From NCBI GenBank assembly GCA_022563885.1, contig JADFMM010000010.1, positions 1-50,594 of the forward strand: DNA of 50,594 nt, in the 5' to 3' direction. The DNA is from Planctomycetota bacterium (GTDB lineage: Bacteria; Planctomycetota; Phycisphaerae; Sedimentisphaerales; Anaerobacaceae). Numbering within the stretch: the first letter of the stretch is position 1; every line of letters begins with the position of its first letter. Shown here piece by piece: positions 2,528-49,479 of this stretch. Both the position numbers and the translations under genes were made by a program. The notes below the pieces were generated by a model. It made no database searches, had not been told where the DNA came from, and saw nothing but the letters and a program-made list of their open reading frames with translations.

Positions 2528-2750
2528 GGAACCTCAGCAAAACTGTTGCGATGGCCAGAGGCAGGTGGGTTTCGTTGGAGAATCCAAGGCTACCATTTAA
2601 CATCACCACCGGGACTTGTCTTCTCGGATTGAGCCGGGTCGTGGTGCCCCTGACGCGGCCCCCGGTGCTTGTCGCACACCCTTGACTCTGCTAGAATCGC
2701 TACGGCACCTAGTAGGATCACGCGCAGCATTCATCGCAGCGGAAGTGCGT

Positions 2751-4328
2751 ATGGCGTTCATCGAACATTGGCGACACAAAGCCCAAGAAACCCTGACGAC
2801 CTGGGCCCGGCAACTCAAGCCCAGTAGCGTTCAGAGCCTCTATGCGTCGACGGTCGCCTTGACCCTTTGGCCGGTGGTGATGGCGCTCAAGGACCAGGGC
2901 AACCCGCTGGAGATCGGTATTGCACTGGCGGCGGTGACGGGGTCTGTCGGGGGCAATCTGCTGGCCACTCTCTTGCAGAGATTCAGAGACAAGACCCTCA
3001 CGCGGGAGCAATTTATAGCCGAGATGGGGCCGCAGTTGGAGGATCCTGCCCTGCGGGAGGCCGTGGATCCGATACTGGCGGAGTTGGAGGCCATGTCCAC
3101 CGTTCAACGAGAACTGCGCGGTGCGCTCAAGGAGGAATTCGTGCAGACCCTGCGCAAAGAACTTGAACGACTCGGAAACCTCTCCCGCTTCGAGGCCCAA
3201 TTGTCCGGCGGCAGTGCTCAGGCGATTGGTGACAGGAACAAGGTGGTCGGAAGTGGCATGCTGGTTGACGGTGACGTGGGCGGACACGTTGTCGGTCCGC
3301 ATGGGACGCTGATGGATCATAGCACTCACTACCACGGGGCCGGACGGGACGACGTCACCCCCTCTTACAGCGAGACCGATCAGCGACGGATCTACCTCAA
3401 GCATCTCTTTGAAGACGCCGAGCACATCTCCCTGCAGAGCTTCGCCAAGGAAGAGGCGGACAAGGCGACTTCCCTGGTCAAGCTTGGATCGATCTATACG
3501 GCCCTGGGAACCAAGGAACTCCGGGACGCGCAAGGGCAAGGTGACAGAAGCGGCAAAGATCAGATGCGGCCCAGGGAACAGGCTTGCCGTTCGGCCCTGG
3601 ATCTAGCCAACAGCACCTCACGCCTGGTGCTGCTGGGTGACCCGGGCAGTGGCAAGAGCACGTTCCTCAACTACCTGTGTCTCTGTCTGACCGGTGAGGG
3701 ACTCGGAAACGAGGAGATCAACCTGAGCCAACTGACTCGCACACTCCCCCAAGACGAGGAGAGCGACGAGCCGGATCCTGCTCATTGGGACCATGGGGAT
3801 TGTCTGCCGATCTTCGTTCAACTCCGCGATTTCGCCGTCAAGGGCCTGCCCGCGGGAGAGGAGCGGGGATCCGCCCTCCACCTGTGGAACTACCTCAAGG
3901 CAATGTTGGAACGGTGGGGCATCGGCGCGTTCACCGCGGCGCTGCAGCATGAGGCCCAAGACGCAAAAAAGAGAACACTGCTTTTGCTCGACGGCTTGGA
4001 TGAGGTCCCCAACCCAGAGGACCAGCGACGTCAGCTCAAGGAGATCATCGAAGATTTTGCAAGAGTACGCACTGCCGCATCATCGTCACCAGCCGCACCT
4101 ACGCCTATCAGAAACAGGACTGGGGCCTCGACGGCTTCTCCTCCGCGGAGTTGGCGCCCTTCAACGAGCCTCAGATTCGCCGCTTCATCGACCAGTGGTA
4201 TGCCTACCAGGTCCACACGAAACAACGAGACGCGGACGACGCCCAGGGCAGGGCCAAGCTGCTGGCGGAGGCCATCTTTCGCAAGAATCGACATCTCGAA
4301 GGACTCGCCGAGCGGCCGCTGCTGTTGA
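2751..4328 (+). CDS. NACHT-FGE conflict protein copy 1, N-terminal part (frameshifted)
   Basis: Residues 1 to about 440 match the N-terminal half of the downstream paralog (6266-9535). There is a helical, partly hydrophobic N-terminal domain (SLYASTVALTLWPVVMAL; IGIALAAVTGSVGGNLLATL), a conserved LERLGNLSRFEAQLSGGSAQ segment, a Gly/Asp-rich linker (GDRNKVVGSGMLVDGDVGGH), then NACHT Walker A GDPGSGKST (about residue 297) and Walker B LLLLDGLDEVP (about 409). I chose ATG 2751 because it aligns with the paralog's start; an in-frame TTG at 2616 is less likely. Alignment fails after DFARVR. Between 4062 and 4073 one base appears to be missing, and the NACHT sequence (CRIIVTSRTYAYQ) resumes in another frame from 4073. 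The residues up to 4328 in this frame are therefore nonsense. Either the gene is genuinely broken or the base is an assembly error. Confidence 0.8.
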   Translation: MAFIEHWRHKAQETLTTWARQLKPSSVQSLYASTVALTLWPVVMALKDQGNPLEIGIALAAVTGSVGGNLLATLLQRFRDKTLTREQFIAEMGPQLEDPALREAVDPILAELEAMSTVQRELRGALKEEFVQTLRKELERLGNLSRFEAQLSGGSAQAIGDRNKVVGSGMLVDGDVGGHVVGPHGTLMDHSTHYHGAGRDDVTPSYSETDQRRIYLKHLFEDAEHISLQSFAKEEADKATSLVKLGSIYTALGTKELRDAQGQGDRSGKDQMRPREQACRSALDLANSTSRLVLLGDPGSGKSTFLNYLCLCLTGEGLGNEEINLSQLTRTLPQDEESDEPDPAHWDHGDCLPIFVQLRDFAVKGLPAGEERGSALHLWNYLKAMLERWGIGAFTAALQHEAQDAKKRTLLLLDGLDEVPNPEDQRRQLKEIIEDFARVRTAASSSPAAPTPIRNRTGASTASPPRSWRPSTSLRFAASSTSGMPTRSTRNNETRTTPRAGPSCWRRPSFARIDISKDSPSGRCC

Positions 4329-5968
4329 CCCTCATGGCCGTGCTCCACTCCTGGCATGGCCGGGAACTGCCCGAGAGGCGGGTCGAACTCTACGAGCAGA
4401 CACTGGATCTGCTGATCCACCGTTGGGACAGCACGAAACAACGTCTGGATCGAAGCGGCCGTGAGAAGCTCCGGAATGAGGCCTTCAGCCAGTGGTTGAG
4501 TACGGGCCGTGGAGAGCTGCGCCTGCTACTCGAACGACTGGCCTTCGAGGCCCATGGCCGACAGGGACCGGGCAGCGACACGGCCGATGTCCCCAAGGAG
4601 GACCTGATCCTCGGCTTGACGCAGATCGGCAAGAACGCCCCGACAGACGACATCGAGGAACATCTTAAGGACCGCATGGGTATCCTGATCGAACGGGGCC
4701 ATGAGGTCTTTACCTTCCCCCATCGCACCTTCCAGGAGTATCTGGCGGCCTGTCACCTGACCCGCGTGGGATTCCCCGGCCAGGTGGCCGACCTGACCCG
4801 TGGCGATCCGCAGCGCTGGCGTGAGGTGACACAATTGGTGGGACTGAAGGTCAACACGGCGCATTCGGCCCTGGCCCTGATGGAACGGCTTTGCGGCGCC
4901 GGTCGAACGAAGGCCGATGCCTGGGGCACGCTGATCGCCGGCGAGTTTCTGGCCGAGAGCGATCGCTGCGGACAGCTCGACACCTTTGAGAAGAAACAGT
5001 TTCAAACCTTCCGAAACCGTTTGACGATGGTCCTGGGCAACGATGCCTTGCCTGCCGGGGAACGGGCCTTGGCCGGACGCCTGTTGGCTCAACTGGGCGA
5101 TCCACGCAAAGAGGTGATGACCGTGGAAGGCATGGCCTTTCAGGAGATGCCTGCTGGTCCCTTTTGGATGGGCTCCGCCGAGCACGATAAGGAGGCCAGG
5201 GAGAACGAAAAGCCAGTTTTCGAAAACCATTTGGACTACGACTACTTCCTGGCCCGCCATCCCCTCAGTAATGCCCAGTACCGCCATTTTGTAGAGGCGG
5301 GTGGCTACCGAGAAGAGCGTTTCTGGCCGGAAGCTGTCGCCGACGGCTGCTGGAAAGGGGGGAAGGTCACGGCCTGGGGCGACTGGACGGACTCTCCGGA
5401 GGGGCATGGACCTCCCTATAATCTGGACAATCATCCGGTTGTGGGTGTCAATTGGTACGAGGCTATGGCCTATTGTCACTGGTTGACTGAGACTCTGCAA
5501 GCGTCGAAGGGGACAGACCCAAAGCTCCGGAAACGCCTCGTCGGCGGCTGGCATGTCACATTGCCCTCGGAGGCCCAATGGGAAAGGGCGGCGCGCGGTG
5601 CAAAGGATCAGCGGATTTATCCTTGGGGCGATGAGGCGGATCCCGACAAGGCGAATTATGACGACACAGGCATTGGGACCACGTCGGCCGTTGGCTGTTT
5701 TCCCTTGGGACGTGGTCACGAGGGTTGCGAGGAGATGAGCGGCAACGTCTGGGAGTGGTGTCGCACCCCTTGGCAGGAGAACTACAAAAGCTACTCCAAT
5801 GAATCCGAAGCCGGTGGCAAGGAGCAGTCCCGCGTGCTTCGCGGCGGCTCGTACTTCAGCACCGCTCAGCTCGTGCGTTGCTCCTTCCGCGACTCGTTCC
5901 ATCCGTTCAACCGCAACGTCGACATTGGTTTTCGTGTGTGTGTCTGTCCCCATTTCTCTGAACTCTGA
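4151..5968 (+). CDS. NACHT-FGE conflict protein copy 1, C-terminal part with DGR variable region
   Basis: This frame continues the NACHT protein. True homology starts at 4073 (CRIIVTSRTYAYQK); TTG 4151 is only the first formal start in the frame. It holds the rest of the STAND module (LAPFNEPQIRRFIDQWY; RPLLLTLMAVLHSWHG; winged-helix signature FPHRTFQEYLAACH) and then an FGE-sulfatase/C-type-lectin domain from about 5116: MPAGPFWMG, HPLSNAQYRHFVEAGG, NHPVVGVNWYEAMAYCHWL, LPSEAQWERAARG, YPWGDE, EEMSGNVWEWCRTPW, RVLRGGSYFSTAQLVRCSF, NVDIGFRVCVC. The final block matches the variable regions of DGR target proteins. With the preceding frame the full protein would be about 1,070 residues, close to its 1,089-residue paralog. 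Proteins combining STAND ATPases with FGE-type sensors are known from bacterial conflict systems; the ligand is unknown. Confidence 0.85.
   Translation: MAPFNEPQIRRFIDQWYAYQVHTKQRDADDAQGRAKLLAEAIFRKNRHLEGLAERPLLLTLMAVLHSWHGRELPERRVELYEQTLDLLIHRWDSTKQRLDRSGREKLRNEAFSQWLSTGRGELRLLLERLAFEAHGRQGPGSDTADVPKEDLILGLTQIGKNAPTDDIEEHLKDRMGILIERGHEVFTFPHRTFQEYLAACHLTRVGFPGQVADLTRGDPQRWREVTQLVGLKVNTAHSALALMERLCGAGRTKADAWGTLIAGEFLAESDRCGQLDTFEKKQFQTFRNRLTMVLGNDALPAGERALAGRLLAQLGDPRKEVMTVEGMAFQEMPAGPFWMGSAEHDKEARENEKPVFENHLDYDYFLARHPLSNAQYRHFVEAGGYREERFWPEAVADGCWKGGKVTAWGDWTDSPEGHGPPYNLDNHPVVGVNWYEAMAYCHWLTETLQASKGTDPKLRKRLVGGWHVTLPSEAQWERAARGAKDQRIYPWGDEADPDKANYDDTGIGTTSAVGCFPLGRGHEGCEEMSGNVWEWCRTPWQENYKSYSNESEAGGKEQSRVLRGGSYFSTAQLVRCSFRDSFHPFNRNVDIGFRVCVCPHFSEL
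5798..5923 (+). other. DGR variable region 1 (VR1)
   Basis: Compared with 9365-9490 the two copies differ at 5798, 5804, 5853, 5855, 5856, 5858, 5859, 5870, 5886, 5907, 5915, 5919 and 5921, and nowhere else between 5732 and 5992. All changes are at codon positions 1 or 2, and 11 of 13 have A in one copy. Diversified residues here are N, S, then Y-F-S, L, F, F and N-V-D. Nearly all variable codons end in C, as expected for template codons of the AAC/TAC type mutated at adenines. The sequence IGFRV just after the region is the classical end of DGR lectin-fold variable regions. Confidence 0.9.
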
Positions 5969-6012: not shown

Positions 6013-6279
6013 ATGGCGGACAAAGACATGATCATTTTCGTCAGGACCTTTGATTTCCTCAGCTGGCTGTTGCCGCTAACGAATCACTTTCCTCGGGCTC
6101 ATCGGCACACGGTTACCAGGCGACTCCTGGACTCCGGCTTTGATTTCTTTGAGCGCATCCAGGCGGCCAATCATCGCATGGGACCGGCGCGCAGGGACAT
6201 GCTGATCGCCGCCGATGAGTCGCTGGCGAGTGTGAGAATGAGATGGAAGGAAAGGGCTCACCCACATGGGATTGTTTGA
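6013..6279 (+). CDS. avd: Avd-like four-helix-bundle protein, C-terminally truncated
   Basis: The 88-residue product resembles the N-terminal three helices of DGR accessory variability determinants (the bAvd / 23S-rRNA-intervening-sequence protein fold): helix 1 IIFVRTFDFLSWLLPLTNHF, then PRAHRHTVTRRLLDSGFDFF, then an acidic/basic helix ending ADESLASVRMRWK. Characteristic features are the aromatic-rich first helix followed by FPRAHR. Avd homologues are usually about 115-130 residues, so the last helix is missing. The gene ends in HPHGIV and overlaps the next gene's start by 14 nt. ATG 6013 has an ACGGAGA ribosome binding site. Avd normally forms a ring that binds the DGR reverse transcriptase and template RNA. 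Its position between two variable-region genes is strong support. Whether the shortened form works is unknown. Confidence 0.7.
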   Translation: MADKDMIIFVRTFDFLSWLLPLTNHFPRAHRHTVTRRLLDSGFDFFERIQAANHRMGPARRDMLIAADESLASVRMRWKERAHPHGIV

Positions 6280-9200
6280 ATTCCTGACGGATTGGAAGAT
6301 GAAAGCCGAGACGCGAATCACCGACTGGGCCGCCAGATTCCAGGCCAGCTCCACGAATGCGGTGTATGGCACGCTGGTGAGCATGGGCTTGCTACCGGTG
6401 GTGGAGGCGTTGGCGAGTGGGGCGGATCCTCAGATGATCGAGAGAGCACTGGCTACGGTGCTGACGTCGGTGGGAGGTAGCCTGCTTGCCGGTGAACTGA
6501 AGGCGTGGCTCAGTGCCGCGGGCTCCGAAGAGGCCTTCGTCCGCAAGGTGACTGAGAGGTTATCCGATCCCGAGTTCCGTAAGGTGGCGGATGAGGTCGT
6601 TAGCGAATTGGATGCGATCGGTGTCGCCAAGCAGGCGGTGCCCGCAGAACTGCAAGACGAGTTTGTTGCCAGCCTGACCAAAGAGTTGCAGCGTTTGGGC
6701 AACCTATCAAAGTTTGAGGCCCAGTTGTCCGGCGGCAGCGCTCAGGTGATCGGGGAACACAACAAGGTTGTTGGCAGCGGGCAATTGATCGACGGGAATG
6801 TGGCAGGTGACGTCCTGGGAAAAGGGGCCGTCAAGACGACGCTCTATGATAATCGCCGACAAACCATCCATGTGACAGAGGCCCAAGACGAGAGTCCCGA
6901 TGCCCGAAGCATCAGGAAGGCCTATCTGGAATGGGTCTTCGAGCGAGACGGCAAGCTGACCCTGGAGGGGATCGATCCGGCCACCGCCTCCGGTGAGAAG
7001 GAGCCGATGCGTCTCAATCATGTCTACACCACCTTGATGACGATGTCGACCGATGAGCAGCGGCGTCTCCTCAAGGAAGGCCAGCCGATAGCGACTGACC
7101 GTCTGCTTTCGGCGGTGGAGATGACGTGCCGGCACAGGCACCTCGTGCTGCTGGGTGACCCGGGCAGCGGCAAGAGCACCTTCGTCAGTTACCTGTCTCT
7201 ATGTATGGCGGGTGAGATTCTGGGAAGGGCCGAGGCCAATCTAGCCGTGTTGTCTCGCTATCTGCATGAGGACGACGAGAAGGAAGAGAAAAGGCCTGCG
7301 CGATTCGACCAGTCGCTGATACCGGTCAAGGTCATCTTGCGGGATTACGTCTCCGCACGGCTGGAAAACCCCAACCTGAGCTTGTGGCAGTTCATACAGG
7401 TCGTCCTGCAGAGGCATGATCTAGGCGAATTTGGCAACATTCTCAAACTGGAACTGACCGAGACCGGTGGCATGATTCTGCTGGACGGCTTGGATGAGGT
7501 GCCGCAGAGCGAGGGGCATCGCGAGGCAATGATCGAGCGGGTGGGGCATTTCCGTGAACGCTTTTCCAAATGCCGTATCTTGGTGACCAGTCGTACCTAC
7601 GCCTATGAAAAACAACAGTGGCAGCTACCGGAATTTACGTCGGTGGTTCTGGCGCCCTTCAACGATGAGCAGATTGAGTTCTTCGTGCGCCGCTGGTATG
7701 AGCAGGTGGCTGGGCAACGTGCTTGGACAGAGGAAGATCGCGAGAGCCGTAGTCAACGACTACTGTTGGCCATCCAGGGCAATGACAAGCTGAGGGAGTT
7801 GGCTTGTCGTCCGATCCTGTTGACCCTAATGGCCGGCCTCCACGCCTGGCGGGGCGGGACCCTTCCCGATGGGCGGCAGCGACTCTACGCCGAGATCTTT
7901 CCGCTGCTTTTGGATCGCTGGGAACAGCCCAAGTATGGCATGGACGACAAAGGGCAACTCAAGATAGAGGAGCCTGCCGTCAGCGAGTACTTCAAGACAG
8001 ACAAAGAAGCGCTTCGGAGGATGCTGGAAAAGCTGGCCTATGACGCCCACGCCAAACAAGAGGAATGTCATGGCACTGCGGACATTGCCGGCGATTCCCT
8101 CGCTGAGGCCTTACTGACCCTGTGTGCGCATGCCGATCGGGAACAGCGCCCCGATCCGGTCGAACTACAGGCCTACCTCGAGAATCGGGCCGGTATCCTT
8201 CATGAGCGGGGCGGCGGGATCTATGCCTTTCCCCATCGCAGCTTTCAGGAATATTTGGCAGCCTGTTACTGTACGAGTCTGGACAATTTCACGGAACATA
8301 TGGCGGGGCTGGCGGTGAAGGATCCCGACCGCTGGCGCGAGGTCTGTCTACTGGCGGCTGCTGAAGCAAAAGGCATGGCCGGATTGACCTGGGATCTCGT
8401 CGATGAACTGTTTGATGAAGGGGCATCGAAGAAAAAACGTTGGTCGAATGAGGATAAGTGGGGCCTTCTTCTGGCTGCGCAGGTGATTCAGGAGTCTTGT
8501 AGTCTCAAGGGCCTGAGCGGCGCCAAACAGAGCAAGGTGGATCGGATCCGTAAGTCTCTCCCCCGATTGTTGGGCTCTGACTTACCGGCCACGGAACGTG
8601 CCCTGGCCGGGCGCCTCTTGGCACAACTGGGTGATCCGCGTAAAGAGGTCATGACCGTGGCAGCAATGCCCTTTCATGAGGTGCCCGCCGGACCCTTCTG
8701 GATGGGATGTGCCGAGCACGATCAGGAGGCCTATGAAGATGAAAAACCGGGGTTTGAGAACAATCTTGATGATGGCTACTTCCTGGCCCGCTACCCCGTC
8801 AGCAATGCCCAGTACAGGTACTTCGTGGAGGCCGGTGGCTACCGAGAAGAACGCTTCTGGCCGGAGGCTCTTGCTGATGAACGTTGGAAAAATGGGAAGC
8901 TCCGAGTGACAACGTGGAGGTATGCGGGCGAGTTGAAGAAGAAAGAGGAACAGGCAGACAGGCCCGCTGGCCACAGTACACCATTCGACCTGGCCAACCA
9001 TCCGGTGGTGGGCGTGAGTTGGTACGAGGCCATGGCCTTCTGTCATTGGCTGGCGGACCACCTGAAGACGGCGAAAGGGGTGGCGCCCCAGGTGCGTGAG
9101 CGTTTGAACCAAGGTTGGCGGATCAGCTTGCCCTCCGAGGCCCAATGGGAGAAGGCGGCCCGGGGTGTGGAAGACCATCGCCTTTACCCCTGGGGCGACA

Positions 9201-9535
9201 AACCAGACGGTGATAAGGCGAGCTACCGTGAAACCAAGGTTGGGAGTACGTCGGCCCTAGGCTGCTTTCCTCGGGGACACAGTCCCTCCAAGTGCGAAGA
9301 GATGAGCGGCAACGTCTGGGAGTGGTGTCGCACCCCTTGGCAGGAGAACTACAAAAGCTACTCCGATGAAACCGAAGCCGGTGGCAAGGAGCAGTCCCGC
9401 GTGCTTCGCGGCGGCTCGTTCAACTACACCGCTCAGGTCGTGCGTTGCTCCTACCGCGACTCGTTCCATCCGTACAACCGCTACGGCAACATTGGTTTTC
9501 GTGTGTGTGTCTGTCCCCATTTCTCTGAACTCTGA
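6266..9535 (+). CDS. NACHT-FGE conflict protein copy 2 (intact), DGR target
   Basis: The intact 1,089-residue protein has these parts. Residues 1-150 are a helical domain with hydrophobic runs (AVYGTLVSMGLLPVVEAL; ALATVLTSVGGSLLAGEL) that I do not recognise and that may be the effector. About 150-205 carry LQRLGNLSKFEAQLSGGSAQ and a Gly/Asp-rich linker. About 290-660 are NACHT: Walker A GDPGSGKST near 295, Walker B MILLDGLDEVP near 402, RILVTSRTYAYE near 437, and YAFPHRSFQEYLAACY near 653. From about 795 is an FGE-sulfatase/C-type-lectin domain ending in RVLRGGSFNYTAQVVRCSY and IGFRVCVC. ATG 6266 has the purine-rich site GGAAGGAAAGGG just before it and overlaps the Avd-like gene, suggesting translational coupling. 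STAND ATPases oligomerise after sensing a ligand; here the diversified lectin domain is the likely sensor. The lectin fold is shared with formylglycine-generating enzyme, but I infer binding rather than catalysis. Confidence 0.9.
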   Translation: MGLFEFLTDWKMKAETRITDWAARFQASSTNAVYGTLVSMGLLPVVEALASGADPQMIERALATVLTSVGGSLLAGELKAWLSAAGSEEAFVRKVTERLSDPEFRKVADEVVSELDAIGVAKQAVPAELQDEFVASLTKELQRLGNLSKFEAQLSGGSAQVIGEHNKVVGSGQLIDGNVAGDVLGKGAVKTTLYDNRRQTIHVTEAQDESPDARSIRKAYLEWVFERDGKLTLEGIDPATASGEKEPMRLNHVYTTLMTMSTDEQRRLLKEGQPIATDRLLSAVEMTCRHRHLVLLGDPGSGKSTFVSYLSLCMAGEILGRAEANLAVLSRYLHEDDEKEEKRPARFDQSLIPVKVILRDYVSARLENPNLSLWQFIQVVLQRHDLGEFGNILKLELTETGGMILLDGLDEVPQSEGHREAMIERVGHFRERFSKCRILVTSRTYAYEKQQWQLPEFTSVVLAPFNDEQIEFFVRRWYEQVAGQRAWTEEDRESRSQRLLLAIQGNDKLRELACRPILLTLMAGLHAWRGGTLPDGRQRLYAEIFPLLLDRWEQPKYGMDDKGQLKIEEPAVSEYFKTDKEALRRMLEKLAYDAHAKQEECHGTADIAGDSLAEALLTLCAHADREQRPDPVELQAYLENRAGILHERGGGIYAFPHRSFQEYLAACYCTSLDNFTEHMAGLAVKDPDRWREVCLLAAAEAKGMAGLTWDLVDELFDEGASKKKRWSNEDKWGLLLAAQVIQESCSLKGLSGAKQSKVDRIRKSLPRLLGSDLPATERALAGRLLAQLGDPRKEVMTVAAMPFHEVPAGPFWMGCAEHDQEAYEDEKPGFENNLDDGYFLARYPVSNAQYRYFVEAGGYREERFWPEALADERWKNGKLRVTTWRYAGELKKKEEQADRPAGHSTPFDLANHPVVGVSWYEAMAFCHWLADHLKTAKGVAPQVRERLNQGWRISLPSEAQWEKAARGVEDHRLYPWGDKPDGDKASYRETKVGSTSALGCFPRGHSPSKCEEMSGNVWEWCRTPWQENYKSYSDETEAGGKEQSRVLRGGSFNYTAQVVRCSYRDSFHPYNRYGNIGFRVCVCPHFSEL
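9365..9490 (+). other. DGR variable region 2 (VR2)
   Basis: This is the counterpart of VR1 at a constant offset of 3567 bp. Diversified residues are D, T, then F-N-Y, V, Y, Y and Y-G-N (about residues 1034-1075). Unlike the flanking paralogous sequence, which has diverged at all codon positions, this segment shows no third-position change relative to VR1. The invariant tail at 9491-9559 follows. Confidence 0.9.
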
Positions 9536-44793: not shown

Positions 44794-44813
44794 TTATTTC
44801 TTGCCGGTCCCTT
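44794..44813 (-). repeat. short copy of the AAGGGACCGGCAAGAAATAA repeat
   Basis: These 20 bases are the perfect reverse complement of 47189-47208, the end of the GH3 gene and left arm of the element at 47190-47371. The copy stands directly beside the promoter at 44815-44842. It shows that the repeat family has more than one location. Confidence 0.6.
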
Positions 44814-44814
44814 A

Positions 44815-44842
44815 TTGCTTTGGGCGGGACGGCAGTTATAAT
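44815..44842 (+). promoter_or_regulatory. sigma70-like promoter of the GH3 gene
   Basis: TTGCTT (44815-44820) and a perfect TATAAT (44837-44842) are spaced by 16 bp, 54 bp upstream of the GH3 start codon. The remaining 44574-44793 sequence upstream holds no gene. Confidence 0.55.
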
Positions 44843-44895
44843 TTGGTAATCCCTACGTTGGGGCGTTTGGTGCCTAGTTTTATAGGAGTTACGGT

Positions 44896-47208
44896 ATGCA
44901 GCGATGGCCATGCTACATTGTCTGCGCGCTGGCGCTGACCGGATGCGGTGGGTCCGAGACTGAGGTCGAGAAGAATGAATTCCGCGTGAGCGAGAAGGGA
45001 ATTCGATATGAGCGAATGAAGCCGCTTGGGTTAGATCGAGAAGTGCGGCGGCTGCTTGCCAAAATGACGCTCGCCGAAAAAGTGGGGCAGATGACCCAGG
45101 TGACATTGGAGGCGGTGGCCGAAGACGACGAGCAGGGCAACGCCGTCCTTGACGAAGAGAAGTTGCGCACGGCCATTTTGACCCATCACGTCGGTTCGAT
45201 TCTCAACTGTGGCGGGCAGGCCCGCACGGTCGACAACTGGCGAGCAATCATCACGACCCTACAGGACCTGGCGACTCAGGAGACGCGTCTGGCCATCCCC
45301 ATCCTCTATGGCATCGATTCCGTGCACGGCGCCAACTACGTTCGGGGCGCGACGATCTTTCCGCAAAACATCGCCATGGCTGCCACCGGCAACATCGACC
45401 TGGTCAAAGCGAGTGCGGAGGTCACCGCACTCGAAACGCGTGCTGCCGGCATCCCGTGGAACTTCAATCCCGTGTTGGGATTGGCGCGTCAACCCCTCTG
45501 GTCACGTCACTTCGAAACCTATGGCGAGGATGCCTATGTGGTCTCCGTTCTAGGCGCCGCCACGATCGAAGGATCGCAGGGTTCAGCCTTGTCCGATTCC
45601 CGTCGGGTGGCGGCCTGCATGAAACACTACCTCGGATACAGTGTCCCCCGCTCCGGACAAGACCGCACACCGGCGGCCATATCGGATCGTGAATTGCGAG
45701 AGCTGTTCCTCAAGCCCTTCGCCGCAGCGGTGCGGGCGAACGTCGCGACGGTGATGGTCAACTCCTCGGAGATCAATGGTCTGCCCGTGCACGCCAGTCC
45801 CTACTATCTTCGCACCATCCTCCGCGAGGAACTGGGTTTCAAGGGCTTCGTGGTCTCCGACTGGAAGGACATCATGAACCTCTATGAGCGGGAGAAGGTG
45901 GCCGCCAGCCAGAGGGAGGCGGTCAAGATGGCCGTGATGGCGGGCATTGATATGAGCATGGTCCCCTACGACTACGACTTCTGCCGGCACCTCATCGATC
46001 TCGTCGAAAAGGAAGAAGTCCCCATGGCACGCATTGACCAGGCGGTGGGGGCAATCCTCCGCGTGAAGTTCAGGCTTGGCCTCTTCGAGAGGCCCTACCC
46101 GGATCCGGATCTGGTCGAGTCGTTTGCCGCAGCATCGGCACAACGCCTCAACCTCAGAGCGGCCCGCGAGTGCTTGACACTGCTCAAGAATGAGCAGTCA
46201 AGACTGCCCCTCGCCAAGACCGCCAGGGTCTTGGTCACGGGGCCCGGCGCCGACTTGCTCTCGACGATGAATGGGGGATGGACCCTGACCCGGCAGGGCG
46301 ACCAGGAATCGCTCTATCCCCAGGAAAAAGACACCATCCTGGAAGCCATCCAGAAGAAGCTGGGGTCGGACCATGTCAAATATGCCCCCGGCGTGGGGTT
46401 CGACAGCGTCAAGGATCTGAACGCGGTCCTGCACCTGGCTGCGGAGGTCGATGTCATCATCGCCTGCCTCGGGGAGCCCAGCTACTGCGAAACGCCCGGC
46501 AACATCACTGATCTTACCCTCTCCGAGCCTCAGCGGACGCTCATCGGTGTCCTGGCCGAGACTGAGAAGCCTATCGTCGTCGTGCTGACTCAGGGTAGAC
46601 CCCGCATTGTTCGTGACATTGTCGATCAGGCTCAGGCCATCCTGCTGGCCTATCTCCCCGGCATGGAGGGTGGTACGGCCATCGCGGACGCACTCTTCGG
46701 CGACGTGAATCCCAGTGGCAAACTCCCCTTCACCTACCCCAAACACACCGGCATGTTTACCCCCTATGACCACAAGCACAGTGAGGAGGCCCCACCCAAC
46801 CGCTTCGATCCCCAGTGGCCCTTCGGTCATGGACTCTCCTACACGCGCTTCGCCTACCGGGGCCTCAACGCCGATCGCTTCGAATTCAAACAGACCGAGT
46901 CGGTGACCGTGACCGTGGAAGTCACCAATGTGGGCGAACGACGGGGTCAGGAGATTGTTCAACTCTTCCTGTCCGATCAGGTCGCCACTGTCACGCCGCC
47001 GGTCAGACGCCTGCGAGGGTTCCAGAAGATTGAACTGCGACCGGGGCAAAGCGAAATCGTGAAATTTTTGCTCAGGCCCGAGGCCTTTAGCTTCATCGGA
47101 GTTGAGAACGTACCGGTCTGGGAACCTGGTGACTTCGATCTGCACGTGGGGGATCTCTCGCAGACGATCACGCTGGTCGCTGACCTTAAAGGGACCGGCA
47201 AGAAATAA
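44896..47208 (+). CDS. glycoside hydrolase family 3 beta-glucosidase-like lipoprotein
   Basis: The 770-residue protein begins MQRWPCYIVCALALTGCGGS, a lipoprotein signal (LALTGC). The GH3 N-terminal barrel has KMTLAEKVGQMTQVT, IPILYGIDSVHGANYVRGAT, FNPVLGLARQPLWSRHFETY, ACMKHYLGYSVPRSGQDRTP and the nucleophile motif FKGFVVSDWKDIMNL. The C-terminal alpha/beta domain carries ECLTLLKNEQSRLPL and VVVLTQGRPRIV, then the fibronectin-III-like end (FGHGLSYTRFAYRG, VEVTNVGERRGQEIVQLF, LRGFQKIELRPGQSE). It likely removes glucose or xylose from oligosaccharides at the cell envelope. AGGAGTT precedes ATG 44896. The final six codons (KGTGKK) lie in a palindromic repeat element. Confidence 0.93.
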   Translation: MQRWPCYIVCALALTGCGGSETEVEKNEFRVSEKGIRYERMKPLGLDREVRRLLAKMTLAEKVGQMTQVTLEAVAEDDEQGNAVLDEEKLRTAILTHHVGSILNCGGQARTVDNWRAIITTLQDLATQETRLAIPILYGIDSVHGANYVRGATIFPQNIAMAATGNIDLVKASAEVTALETRAAGIPWNFNPVLGLARQPLWSRHFETYGEDAYVVSVLGAATIEGSQGSALSDSRRVAACMKHYLGYSVPRSGQDRTPAAISDRELRELFLKPFAAAVRANVATVMVNSSEINGLPVHASPYYLRTILREELGFKGFVVSDWKDIMNLYEREKVAASQREAVKMAVMAGIDMSMVPYDYDFCRHLIDLVEKEEVPMARIDQAVGAILRVKFRLGLFERPYPDPDLVESFAAASAQRLNLRAARECLTLLKNEQSRLPLAKTARVLVTGPGADLLSTMNGGWTLTRQGDQESLYPQEKDTILEAIQKKLGSDHVKYAPGVGFDSVKDLNAVLHLAAEVDVIIACLGEPSYCETPGNITDLTLSEPQRTLIGVLAETEKPIVVVLTQGRPRIVRDIVDQAQAILLAYLPGMEGGTAIADALFGDVNPSGKLPFTYPKHTGMFTPYDHKHSEEAPPNRFDPQWPFGHGLSYTRFAYRGLNADRFEFKQTESVTVTVEVTNVGERRGQEIVQLFLSDQVATVTPPVRRLRGFQKIELRPGQSEIVKFLLRPEAFSFIGVENVPVWEPGDFDLHVGDLSQTITLVADLKGTGKK

Positions 47209-47371
47209 CTTGGACTTTTGAATGCCCAATTGCACCCCATCTCTGATCGCTTCTCAATCGCGAAATCCGCGACGTAGGACAGCTACGCCTGTGGTTTCGC
47301 TCAATCGGGCGCGACCAAATATGGGGCACACTTGGACCCCAAATTGTCCAACTTATTTCTTGCCGATCCCT
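47190..47371. repeat. 182-bp palindromic MITE-like element
   Basis: The arms 47190-47215 and 47346-47371 are 26-nt reverse complements with two mismatches. Subterminal arms containing CCCAATTG/CCAAGTGTG and a central GCGAAATCC...GGTTTCGC palindrome with CGTAG-GACAG-CTACG in its core suggest a large snap-back structure. The left arm contributes the last codons and stop of the GH3 gene. Related pieces lie at 44794-44813 and 49028-49080. No transposase is present. The right arm ends 17 bp before the next gene's start. Confidence 0.65.
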
Positions 47372-47388
47372 AAAGGGACCGCAAAGAG

Positions 47389-48108
47389 ATGATTATACTG
47401 ACCGATTTCAGCGACAATCTGGTGGCCCTATACGAGTACATGCCCGGCCAGGCCCTGGTCGTGGATCCGCCCGACGCCGCGTCTGTCCTGCGGGCCCTCG
47501 ATGCTAACGGTCTGAGGCTCACGACCATCCTGGCGACGCATCACCACGGTGACCATGTGGGCGGCATCTCAGGGCTCAAACGCCAGACCGGCTGCGTAGT
47601 CTATGGCAGTGACGCGGCCCGCATCCCCGAAATGGACCAGGTCGTTACGGAGGAGCAGGCCATCCAGCTCGGGCCGGCAACGATCAAGACGATGGAAACG
47701 CCGGGGCACACGCGCACGGAGGTCTGTTACTACCGCCTGCCCGGGGCAGGCGAGGCGTCGGGCCTACTGTGGGCAGGAGACACCCTCTTCGTAGGGGGCT
47801 GCGGGCGGCTCTTCGAAGGGACGGCCGAACAGATGTATGACGCCTTTCAAAAACTCAAGGCCCTGCCCGACGACACGCAGGTCTACTGTGGTCACGAATA
47901 TACCGTCGAGAACTATCAATTCGCTTTGACGATCGAACCCGACAATCAAGCGATTCAAGACGCCCTCGCCGTTGCCGAGCAGGCCTTGGCCCGGGGCCAT
48001 CCAACCGTTCCCTCCACGATTGGGCAGGAGAAGCGAACAAACCTCTTCATGCAGGCGACCAGCATCGAGGCGTTTGCTAGCCTGCGCCGACAAAAAGATC
48101 ATTTTTGA
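47389..48108 (+). CDS. gloB: hydroxyacylglutathione hydrolase (glyoxalase II-like)
   Basis: The 239-residue metallo-beta-lactamase-fold protein has ILATHHHGDHVGGI (THxHxDH metal motif), TPGHTRTEVCYY, LWAGDTLFVGGCGRLFEGTA and YCGHEYTVENYQFALTIEPD, and a C-terminal helical part with the glutathione-contact type sequence PSTIGQEKRTNLFMQ. It hydrolyses S-lactoylglutathione to lactate in methylglyoxal detoxification. The start ATG 47389 follows AAAGAG, within 17 bp of the palindromic element. Some related enzymes act on other thioesters. The symbol reflects strong family similarity. Confidence 0.88.
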   Translation: MIILTDFSDNLVALYEYMPGQALVVDPPDAASVLRALDANGLRLTTILATHHHGDHVGGISGLKRQTGCVVYGSDAARIPEMDQVVTEEQAIQLGPATIKTMETPGHTRTEVCYYRLPGAGEASGLLWAGDTLFVGGCGRLFEGTAEQMYDAFQKLKALPDDTQVYCGHEYTVENYQFALTIEPDNQAIQDALAVAEQALARGHPTVPSTIGQEKRTNLFMQATSIEAFASLRRQKDHF

Positions 48109-49027: not shown

Positions 49028-49115
49028 AAGGGACCGGCACTGATTAAACTTACATTTTGAGTTTCAAGTGCGTCCCATATTTGGGATGAAACTAAGGATG
49101 GGGGACGGTTTCTCA
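49028..49115. repeat. diverged repeat copy with nested palindromes
   Basis: AAGGGACCGGCA (49028-49039) and the following ~40 bp align with the left arm of the 47190 element with several changes. It continues into GTTTCA...TCCCA-TATT-TGGGA-TGAAAC nested inverted repeats. The interval 48836-49751 contains no convincing gene: its frames have no start context or recognisable domain. Confidence 0.45.
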
Positions 49116-49479
49116 AAAAGACTGTCCCTTCCCAGCATTCTCGGCGAAACCACAGGTGTAGCTGTTCGGAGCCTGTCCCGAGCGAAGCCCAAGGATCTGG
49201 ACTTTGCGGTTGCCCCGTGCTGTTTCTCCACCAAGGGATACCCCATACACGCCATCAACTATGGCTATGACAGAACTTGGCGCCCTTCATCGGTGGACGC
49301 TTGCAGCGGGACCCCGATCTGGTATGGCCGCGACATGTTTCAGGCACTACCGTTCCTTTTCCAGAGGCACGTCGTCTCCTTCGTGTGCGTCCTTTTCTTG
49401 ATACATACTTCCTCATCTTGCAAGCCAGTGGGAGCTTTGGTTCAGAGCTTGATCAATGGTTAAACTCCGGAAATTATTC

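Follow-up and report, generated by a model that had tools for sequence, protein, structure and literature searches.

A palindromic MITE at the end of a planctomycete GH3 gene belongs to a structured repeat family with variable ends

Introduction

The window analysed here, a 50,594-nt stretch of DNA from a Planctomycetota bacterium (assembly GCA_022563885.1, contig JADFMM010000010.1), contains a gene for a GH3 family glycoside hydrolase (44896-47208, plus strand). As the initial annotation of the window had noticed, its reading frame stops within the left arm of an inverted-repeat element. The locus thus raises the question of what this element is, what moves it and what its arrival has done to the GH3 gene.

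Short palindromic repeats of bacteria fall into different classes. MITEs are usually seen as derivatives of one transposon that arose by internal deletion and are specific to a lineage. REP and REPIN palindromes are not known to have target duplications (TSDs), and the presence of TSDs points to a DDE transposase. We therefore begin with the boundaries of the element and its flanks.

Results

Boundaries and sequence of the element

The palindrome at the GH3 end is real, but the extent first assigned to it (182 bp at 47189-47371) needs correction: the element comprises 180 bp (47191-47370, plus strand), is full-length, runs from GGGACC to GATCCC and shares 98.3% identity with a 180-bp consensus. 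Its exact terminal inverted repeat (TIR) is GGGAYCGGCAAGAAATAA. The left TIR of 18 bp (47191-47208, plus strand) doubles as the GTGKK* codons of GH3, and the right TIR of the same length (47353-47370) reads GGGATCGGCAAGAAATAA on the minus strand. Copies of the target duplication flank the element as TAAA at 47187-47190 and TAAA at 47371-47374, compared with a family norm of 3 bp (TAA or TTA). The left flank carries one A beyond a clean TAA duplication, reflecting either a 4-bp duplication or a gained A.

The middle of the element is occupied by a conserved central hairpin (47260-47300, plus strand, GCGAAATCC...GGTTTCGC), with a left (47253-47260) and a right copy (47300-47307) of CTCAATCG, a direct repeat that is conserved and mostly unpaired, both on the plus strand. 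As DNA the element folds into a near-full-length hairpin with a folding z of -7.4. No listed open reading frame (ORF) of at least 60 aa lies inside the 180 bp, and an Rfam scan gave no match above the gathering score, the best one overlapping the element reaching 21.9 bits against a cut-off of 36.2.

Arm matches with up to three mismatches occur four times in the window and not once in 100 shuffles. The 20-bp piece that had been reported in the opposite sense at 44794-44813 (minus strand) is an exact match to the element arm, i.e. a solo arm upstream of GH3, and the proposed diverged copy near 49028 proved to be a decayed half copy of the same family, broken by unrelated sequence (about 49030-49166, minus strand). 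The half copy was missed by the family covariance model described below; its alignment score of 81 compares with a maximum of 49.6 among 300 mononucleotide shuffles. A short sequence, TCGGAGCCTGTCCCGAGCGAAGCCCAAGG, adjoins it at 49166-49194 and presumably resembles widespread bacterial repeats of its kind.

The GH3 terminus and the empty site

Four proteins of the window that lie near the element were scanned with Pfam. In the GH3 protein the Fn3-like domain match stops at residue 754 of 770, and the next gene downstream codes for a metallo-beta-lactamase (MBL) fold hydrolase with a HAGH_C match (47389-48108, plus strand). We compared this junction with that of a same-genus relative (G001), whose GH3 is 97% identical over residues 137-770. 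Its contig C24, apparently the GTDB contig JADFHU010000181.1 of Planctomycetota bacterium isolate B36T1B5 (same match coordinates), carries the GH3 end without the element and thus provides an empty site, the single such site examined. At the insertion point the relative reads GAC CCT GAA GGG ACC GCA AAG AGA TGA, ending ...DPEGTAKR*, and the TGA stop of GH3 overlaps the MBL start as ATGA. In the window the gene ends with GAC CTT AAA GGG ACC GGC AAG AAA TAA, i.e. ...DLKGTGKK*.

The comparison qualifies what had been claimed for the GH3 C-terminus. Of the residues KGTGKK attributed to the element, GTGKK and the stop are indeed element-derived (GGG ACC GGC AAG AAA TAA), while the codon of the first lysine, AAA at 47188-47190, belongs to the flank. 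The element does give GH3 its last five codons and its stop, but it replaced an existing tail of the same length and added none: GH3 is equally long in the window and in G001, and the last five codons differ by replacement. The initial annotation had named identical terminal codons in an element-free relative as evidence against its reading, and G001 comes close to this with GTAKR* compared with GTGKK*. The old GH3 tail codons are retained in the window beyond the element, ahead of the MBL gene, where GGGACCGCAAAGAGATGA (47375-47392, plus strand), coding for GTAKR* in G001, is now the leader and start of that gene.

Counted by eye, the old tail in G001 shares 14 of its 18 bases with the element end, a likeness that may be due to chance, to target preference or to an older relic; an arm search with up to four mismatches also hits this empty-site tail. 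The GH3 of a more distant ortholog (63%, genome G004) ends in ...FELK* without such a tail.

From these data we propose that the element inserted at a TAA within the last GH3 codons, at the GH3/MBL junction. This would have converted GTAKR* into GTGKK* and placed a hairpin of 180 bp between GH3 and the MBL gene, two genes that overlap in the relative. Because the TIR ends in a stop in the frame used by GH3 and the TAA duplication can act as a stop in another frame, an insertion near the 3′ end of a gene would merely re-end the protein. As the Fn3-like match ends at residue 754 of 770, only a small effect on the GH3 enzyme is to be expected.

Copies in the same genome

The search for further copies that the initial annotation had suggested finds the arm 375 times with up to two mismatches in the genome of the window (G000, 6.5 Mb in 470 contigs), compared with 0 for a reversed-pattern control. 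In a search with the element, 40 of 462 candidates were scored, and these are full-element matches with 95-100% identity. Loci of G000 and G001 yielded 113 distinct arm pairs, 96 of them spanning 178-183 bp and 17 spanning 37 to 90 bp. Perfect 3-bp duplications flank 69 of the 96 full copies (TAA 35, TTA 24, others 10) and are absent from the other 27; the same test at five control offsets finds 1 to 4 of 96. The target logo of the full copies in the two genomes is C-TWA-G, and the 79 copies of exactly 180 bp have a mean identity of 97.1% to their consensus. At least 18 solo arms are present in the first locus set (up to three mismatches, one place or more counted twice).

Thus, the element is short, non-coding, high-copy and dispersed, has 18-bp TIRs and 3-bp TSDs and is matched by one empty site. 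We have hardly any doubt that it is a bacterial MITE.

Insertions avoid ORFs. For 87 full elements flanked on either side by 400 bp or more, an ORF of at least 100 codons enters the element at 31 of 174 sides, compared with 147 of 312 control boundaries set at a distance of 250-350 bp, which were scored slightly more loosely in that any ORF end position was allowed. The GTGKK tail recurs at other entering, putatively coding ORFs (L183, L184, L185 and L150), and where an entering ORF has an in-frame TAA, the duplication itself is the stop.

Short forms of 58, 66 and 78 bp recur in G000 and G001, and a 37-bp form in G000 (L018 near 2311) consists of two arms back to back, an extreme internal deletion. 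The flanks of five of the 96 full copies read TAA/TTA and those of one read TTA/TAA, i.e. the middle base is flipped, for which simple decay is not an obvious explanation.

Covariation of the fold

The fold was analysed on an alignment (A5) of 34 chosen fetched copies, leaving out the copies of genome G344 and several near-duplicates. Compensated double changes are found in 46 of the 50 pairs, which were predicted from this same alignment of copies mostly found by a model that includes structure. Pairing is observed in 89.3% of the cells, compared with 68.4% after shuffling, and changes on both sides in 345 cells compared with 97. None of 500 shuffles reaches any of the five measures, a result inflated by the sequence relatedness of the copies, and slid versions pair at 27 to 41%. 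Each of the five helices shows covariation, not the TIRs alone. On the basis of this predicted structure the family body seems to be kept as one long covarying hairpin. An assignment of selection to the RNA level from the G-U bias is ambiguous, as the sign of the bias depends on the strand that is read.

Distribution and ends across the phylum

With a covariance model built from 14 copies of the genomes G000, G001 and G002, matches were obtained in 10 of 148 genomes from the order and, across a wider phylum sample, in 13 of 392. The own genome is counted in both, and both numbers are lower bounds, given stricter filters and few candidates scored per genome. The 12 other matching genomes of the wider sample are all labelled outside the window's class, and none lies in the class outside the order. 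This patchy distribution could reflect horizontal transfer just as well as old descent. Among the matches, the better ones span the whole model (176-182 bp), the match in G432 is partial and those in G052, G121, G168 and G337 are weak. Within the order, perfect 3-bp TSDs flank 31 of 45 fetched copies outside G000 and G001, the 45 including three weak rows from G052 and G121 without a TSD.

The TIR sequences are specific to each lineage and mirrored at both ends. Most copies of the family start with GG and have TWA duplications; in the wider phylum, 11 of 22 copies with ends of this GG type carry a perfect 3-bp duplication (read from the output). Two groups have other ends. Seven copies in G485 and G463 start ATACCCATCACGAATTGG-like, and the outer base is T at 13 of their 14 ends, so that the junction reads TA-TACCC. 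Two copies in G494 start with TACTYA... and have TA outside at three of four ends (by eye), and in a third, weaker copy of this genome (L348:2045-2230) only one end is bordered by TA. The body of the TA-flanked copies is plainly homologous to that of the family, and GG-ended copies are also present in G485 and G494. In a weak tree of the body (130 columns) the two TA-flanked groups form separate clades, with a support of 1.0 each, amid GG-ended copies.

The transposase

The ends of the element point to ISAzo13 (PF07592), whose transposase probably mobilises it. Among 16 ISAzo13 loci scanned, both ends are readable in four. The TWA flanks at both ends are identical in three of these (L116, L120 and L122) and differ by one mismatch in the fourth (L117), and all four elements have TWA-GG ends. 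Located without reference to the MITE, the eight ends agree with their closest counterparts among 98 distinct MITE ends at 13 to 16 of 18 positions. In a background of 2,000 TWA-GG 18-mers, 157 score at least 16 and were set aside, these being probably real copies, and 42 of the other 1,843 reach 13. Two more ISAzo13 ends (L387 and L388) were located by a search with a MITE end and are thus not independent. The end at L387:1359 in G485 is identical, at 18 of 18 positions, to the end of a MITE from that genome (L367), and its partner IS end is readable in L389 (by eye); conceivably, though, the L387 end is a solo MITE arm lying next to a broken IS.

In the own genome no transposase with the exact TIR of the window element was found; the ends of L116, its only full ISAzo13, are not the same. 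PF07592 is matched in only seven of 20 element-bearing genomes tested (G000, G001, G023, G116, G485, G494 and G514); most of the genomes tested are drafts.

Other candidate parents were rejected. Eight loci with IS4/IS5-type PF01609 show no convincing arm, and scattered matches with up to five mismatches were judged to be chance; the Harbinger-like PF13359 has zero matches in the own genome. As a parent of the TA-flanked ends we considered IS630 (PF13358), where none of eight loci has such an end with up to four mismatches. The IS630 copies L378 and L380 of G485 have TTAACCCGGCAATTAAATA as ends, and PF13358 gives one match below the cut-off in G463 and none in G494. If the solo arms were ends of a long autonomous element, a partner arm would be expected, and no convincing one is found in loci of mostly 2-3 kb.

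The ISAzo13 element of L117 (560-2465, in G001) has a 297-aa upstream ORF without a Pfam match and a 310-aa transposase, and its right end adjoins a MITE copy at TWA. The ISAzo13 transposase profile has 14 matches in genome G105 that cover its final 27-33 positions. At least nine of these lie where a contig begins, which suggests another repeat family built from an IS 3′ end.

Discussion

Taken together, the element is very probably a non-autonomous 180-bp DNA transposon that inserted at the GH3/MBL junction and belongs to a structured family with variable ends. The GG-starting ends and the 3-bp TWA duplications suggest that it is moved in trans and that the enzyme is probably an ISAzo13-family DDE transposase. 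In common with ISAzo13 (PF07592, Rhodopirellula transposase), the element has GG-starting ends, an A/T-rich TIR end, a TWA target and a 3-bp TSD. It differs in having no transposase gene and in its length of 180 bp compared with 1.3-1.9 kb, and no resident ISAzo13 with exactly the TIR of the window was found. TSDs of 3 bp are described for both ISAzo13 and the eukaryotic Zator (PMC10045372).

Two other classes of element were proposed or can be considered for the locus. The inverted arms of 20-23 bp on both sides of GH3 had led to the suggestion of an inversion. Recombination between the arms at 44794 and 47191 would then turn the gene around, making it an invertible switch for phase variation. 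However, G001 has the identical solo arm upstream (L115) and no element downstream, and its gene order and orientation are unchanged: the inversion of 44794-47208 finds no counterpart in this relative, which keeps the HlyD-GH3 and GH3-MBL adjacencies and orientations (on two contigs). Moreover, the arms are spread over the genome as a transposon family rather than forming a pair built around GH3. We regard such a switch as extremely improbable. A repeat of the REP/REPIN type, mobilised by a RAYT (Y1) transposase, would likewise be high-copy, palindromic and mostly placed outside ORFs. Against this stand the size of the element, 180 bp, its 18-bp TIRs and its 3-bp TSDs, so that it falls outside REPs and REPINs both by length and by the presence of TSDs. 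REPs are described as 20-40 bp long, in a source that also reports REP families from Planctomycetes (PMC3733652). A REP origin is very improbable, and the classification as a MITE is retained.

Doubts of a different weight concern the cause of the covariation and the identity of the transposase. The covarying body could have arisen neutrally, by self-correction of the palindrome through template switching between its arms, and not by selection. Consistent with this, the pairing runs across the whole palindrome, and on the aligned strand G-U pairs show no excess over A-C (24 compared with 50 in the ends, 9 compared with 32 in the middle, and 10 compared with 11 in the core, excluding one constant U-G pair); a hand tally on alignment A4 (24 G-U, 44 A-C) leans the same way as A5. 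Read on the other strand, however, these counts become a G-U excess in the ends and the middle, compatible with a minus-strand RNA. Further points against self-correction are that unpaired positions are conserved about like the core stems (0.82-0.85 compared with 0.81-0.87), that the core hairpin is flanked left and right by CTCAATCG in one orientation, conserved at 0.59-1.0 per base, and that the U-G mismatch is retained in 32 of 34 copies. We consider a neutral origin of the fold less likely than not, though of appreciable weight. As to the transposase, another family with TWA duplications, e.g. an IS5/PIF-like one, might move the element, the likeness to ISAzo13 then being convergence on GG ends. 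PF07592 is unmatched in 13 of the 20 element-bearing genomes tested, among them G086, where 12 of 13 fetched copies nevertheless have perfect TSDs, and the IS5/PIF group is described as having no TSDs or ones of 1 to 4 bp (PMC10045372). Yet each of the eight independent ISAzo13 ends agrees with a MITE end at 13 or more of 18 positions and one further end is identical within the same genome, while the PF01609 elements of the own genome have other ends or none that were found, and PF13359 is unmatched there. A different transposase family thus appears unlikely, and ISAzo13 is kept as the candidate mobiliser.

The consequence for GH3 is a known kind of event, because the MITEs QMITE1 and QMITE2 of Coxiella, which overlap gene 3′ ends, can provide a C-terminus or stop while changing protein size little (PMC5896051). 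The re-ending of GH3 resembles this overlap by description; what sets the present family apart from the Coxiella elements, as described in that source, is its phylum-wide body. The locus in the window adds a documented MITE case with an empty site, in which a protein has been re-ended at equal length and two overlapping genes have been separated. Other palindromic MITEs of about 100-200 bp, ERIC, Correia/NEMIS and RUP, have transcripts that fold over their length, and ERIC is common to many enterobacteria (PMC2229807). These elements are described with TA termini, whereas the family reported here is mostly TWA-GG and TA-flanked in two groups only.

What is new here is a MITE whose body seems to outlive its ends: within the order of the window, and also in families that belong to other classes, a non-coding body recurs with its fold conserved, while the ends vary and look like those of different transposons. 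Tentatively, and with a little less than even confidence, we propose that it is the body that persists. As a structured cassette of about 180 bp, in which copies of CTCAATCG flank a covarying hairpin on either side, it would have been maintained in, or spread through, Planctomycetota at near-constant length while its terminal repeats were repeatedly remade; the ends would track different ISAzo13 transposases, with at least two switches to TA-flanked types (one in G485 and G463, one in G494). If true, the family would live as a parasite of transposons and exchange one transposase host for another. If confirmed, it would provide a clean test of what sustains a MITE body without a parent, and of transposase change. 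In the literature on structured or end-switching bacterial MITEs, planctomycete MITEs and MITE-supplied C-termini, subscription papers and preprints apart, we did not find the family described, and the accessible part of a 2024 review of prokaryotic MITEs contains neither the term ISAzo13 nor Planctomyc (PMC10969869).

Other features of the window

Far from the GH3 locus, two neighbouring genes with similar translations lie at 2616-5968 and 6266-9535. By the look of their sequence we take them to encode a NACHT-like ATPase with a sulfatase-modifying-like C-terminus. The gene at 6266-9535 is intact and codes for 1089 aa. Its neighbour is split into the overlapping frames 2616-4328 and 4151-5968, which suggests a frameshift or an assembly error.
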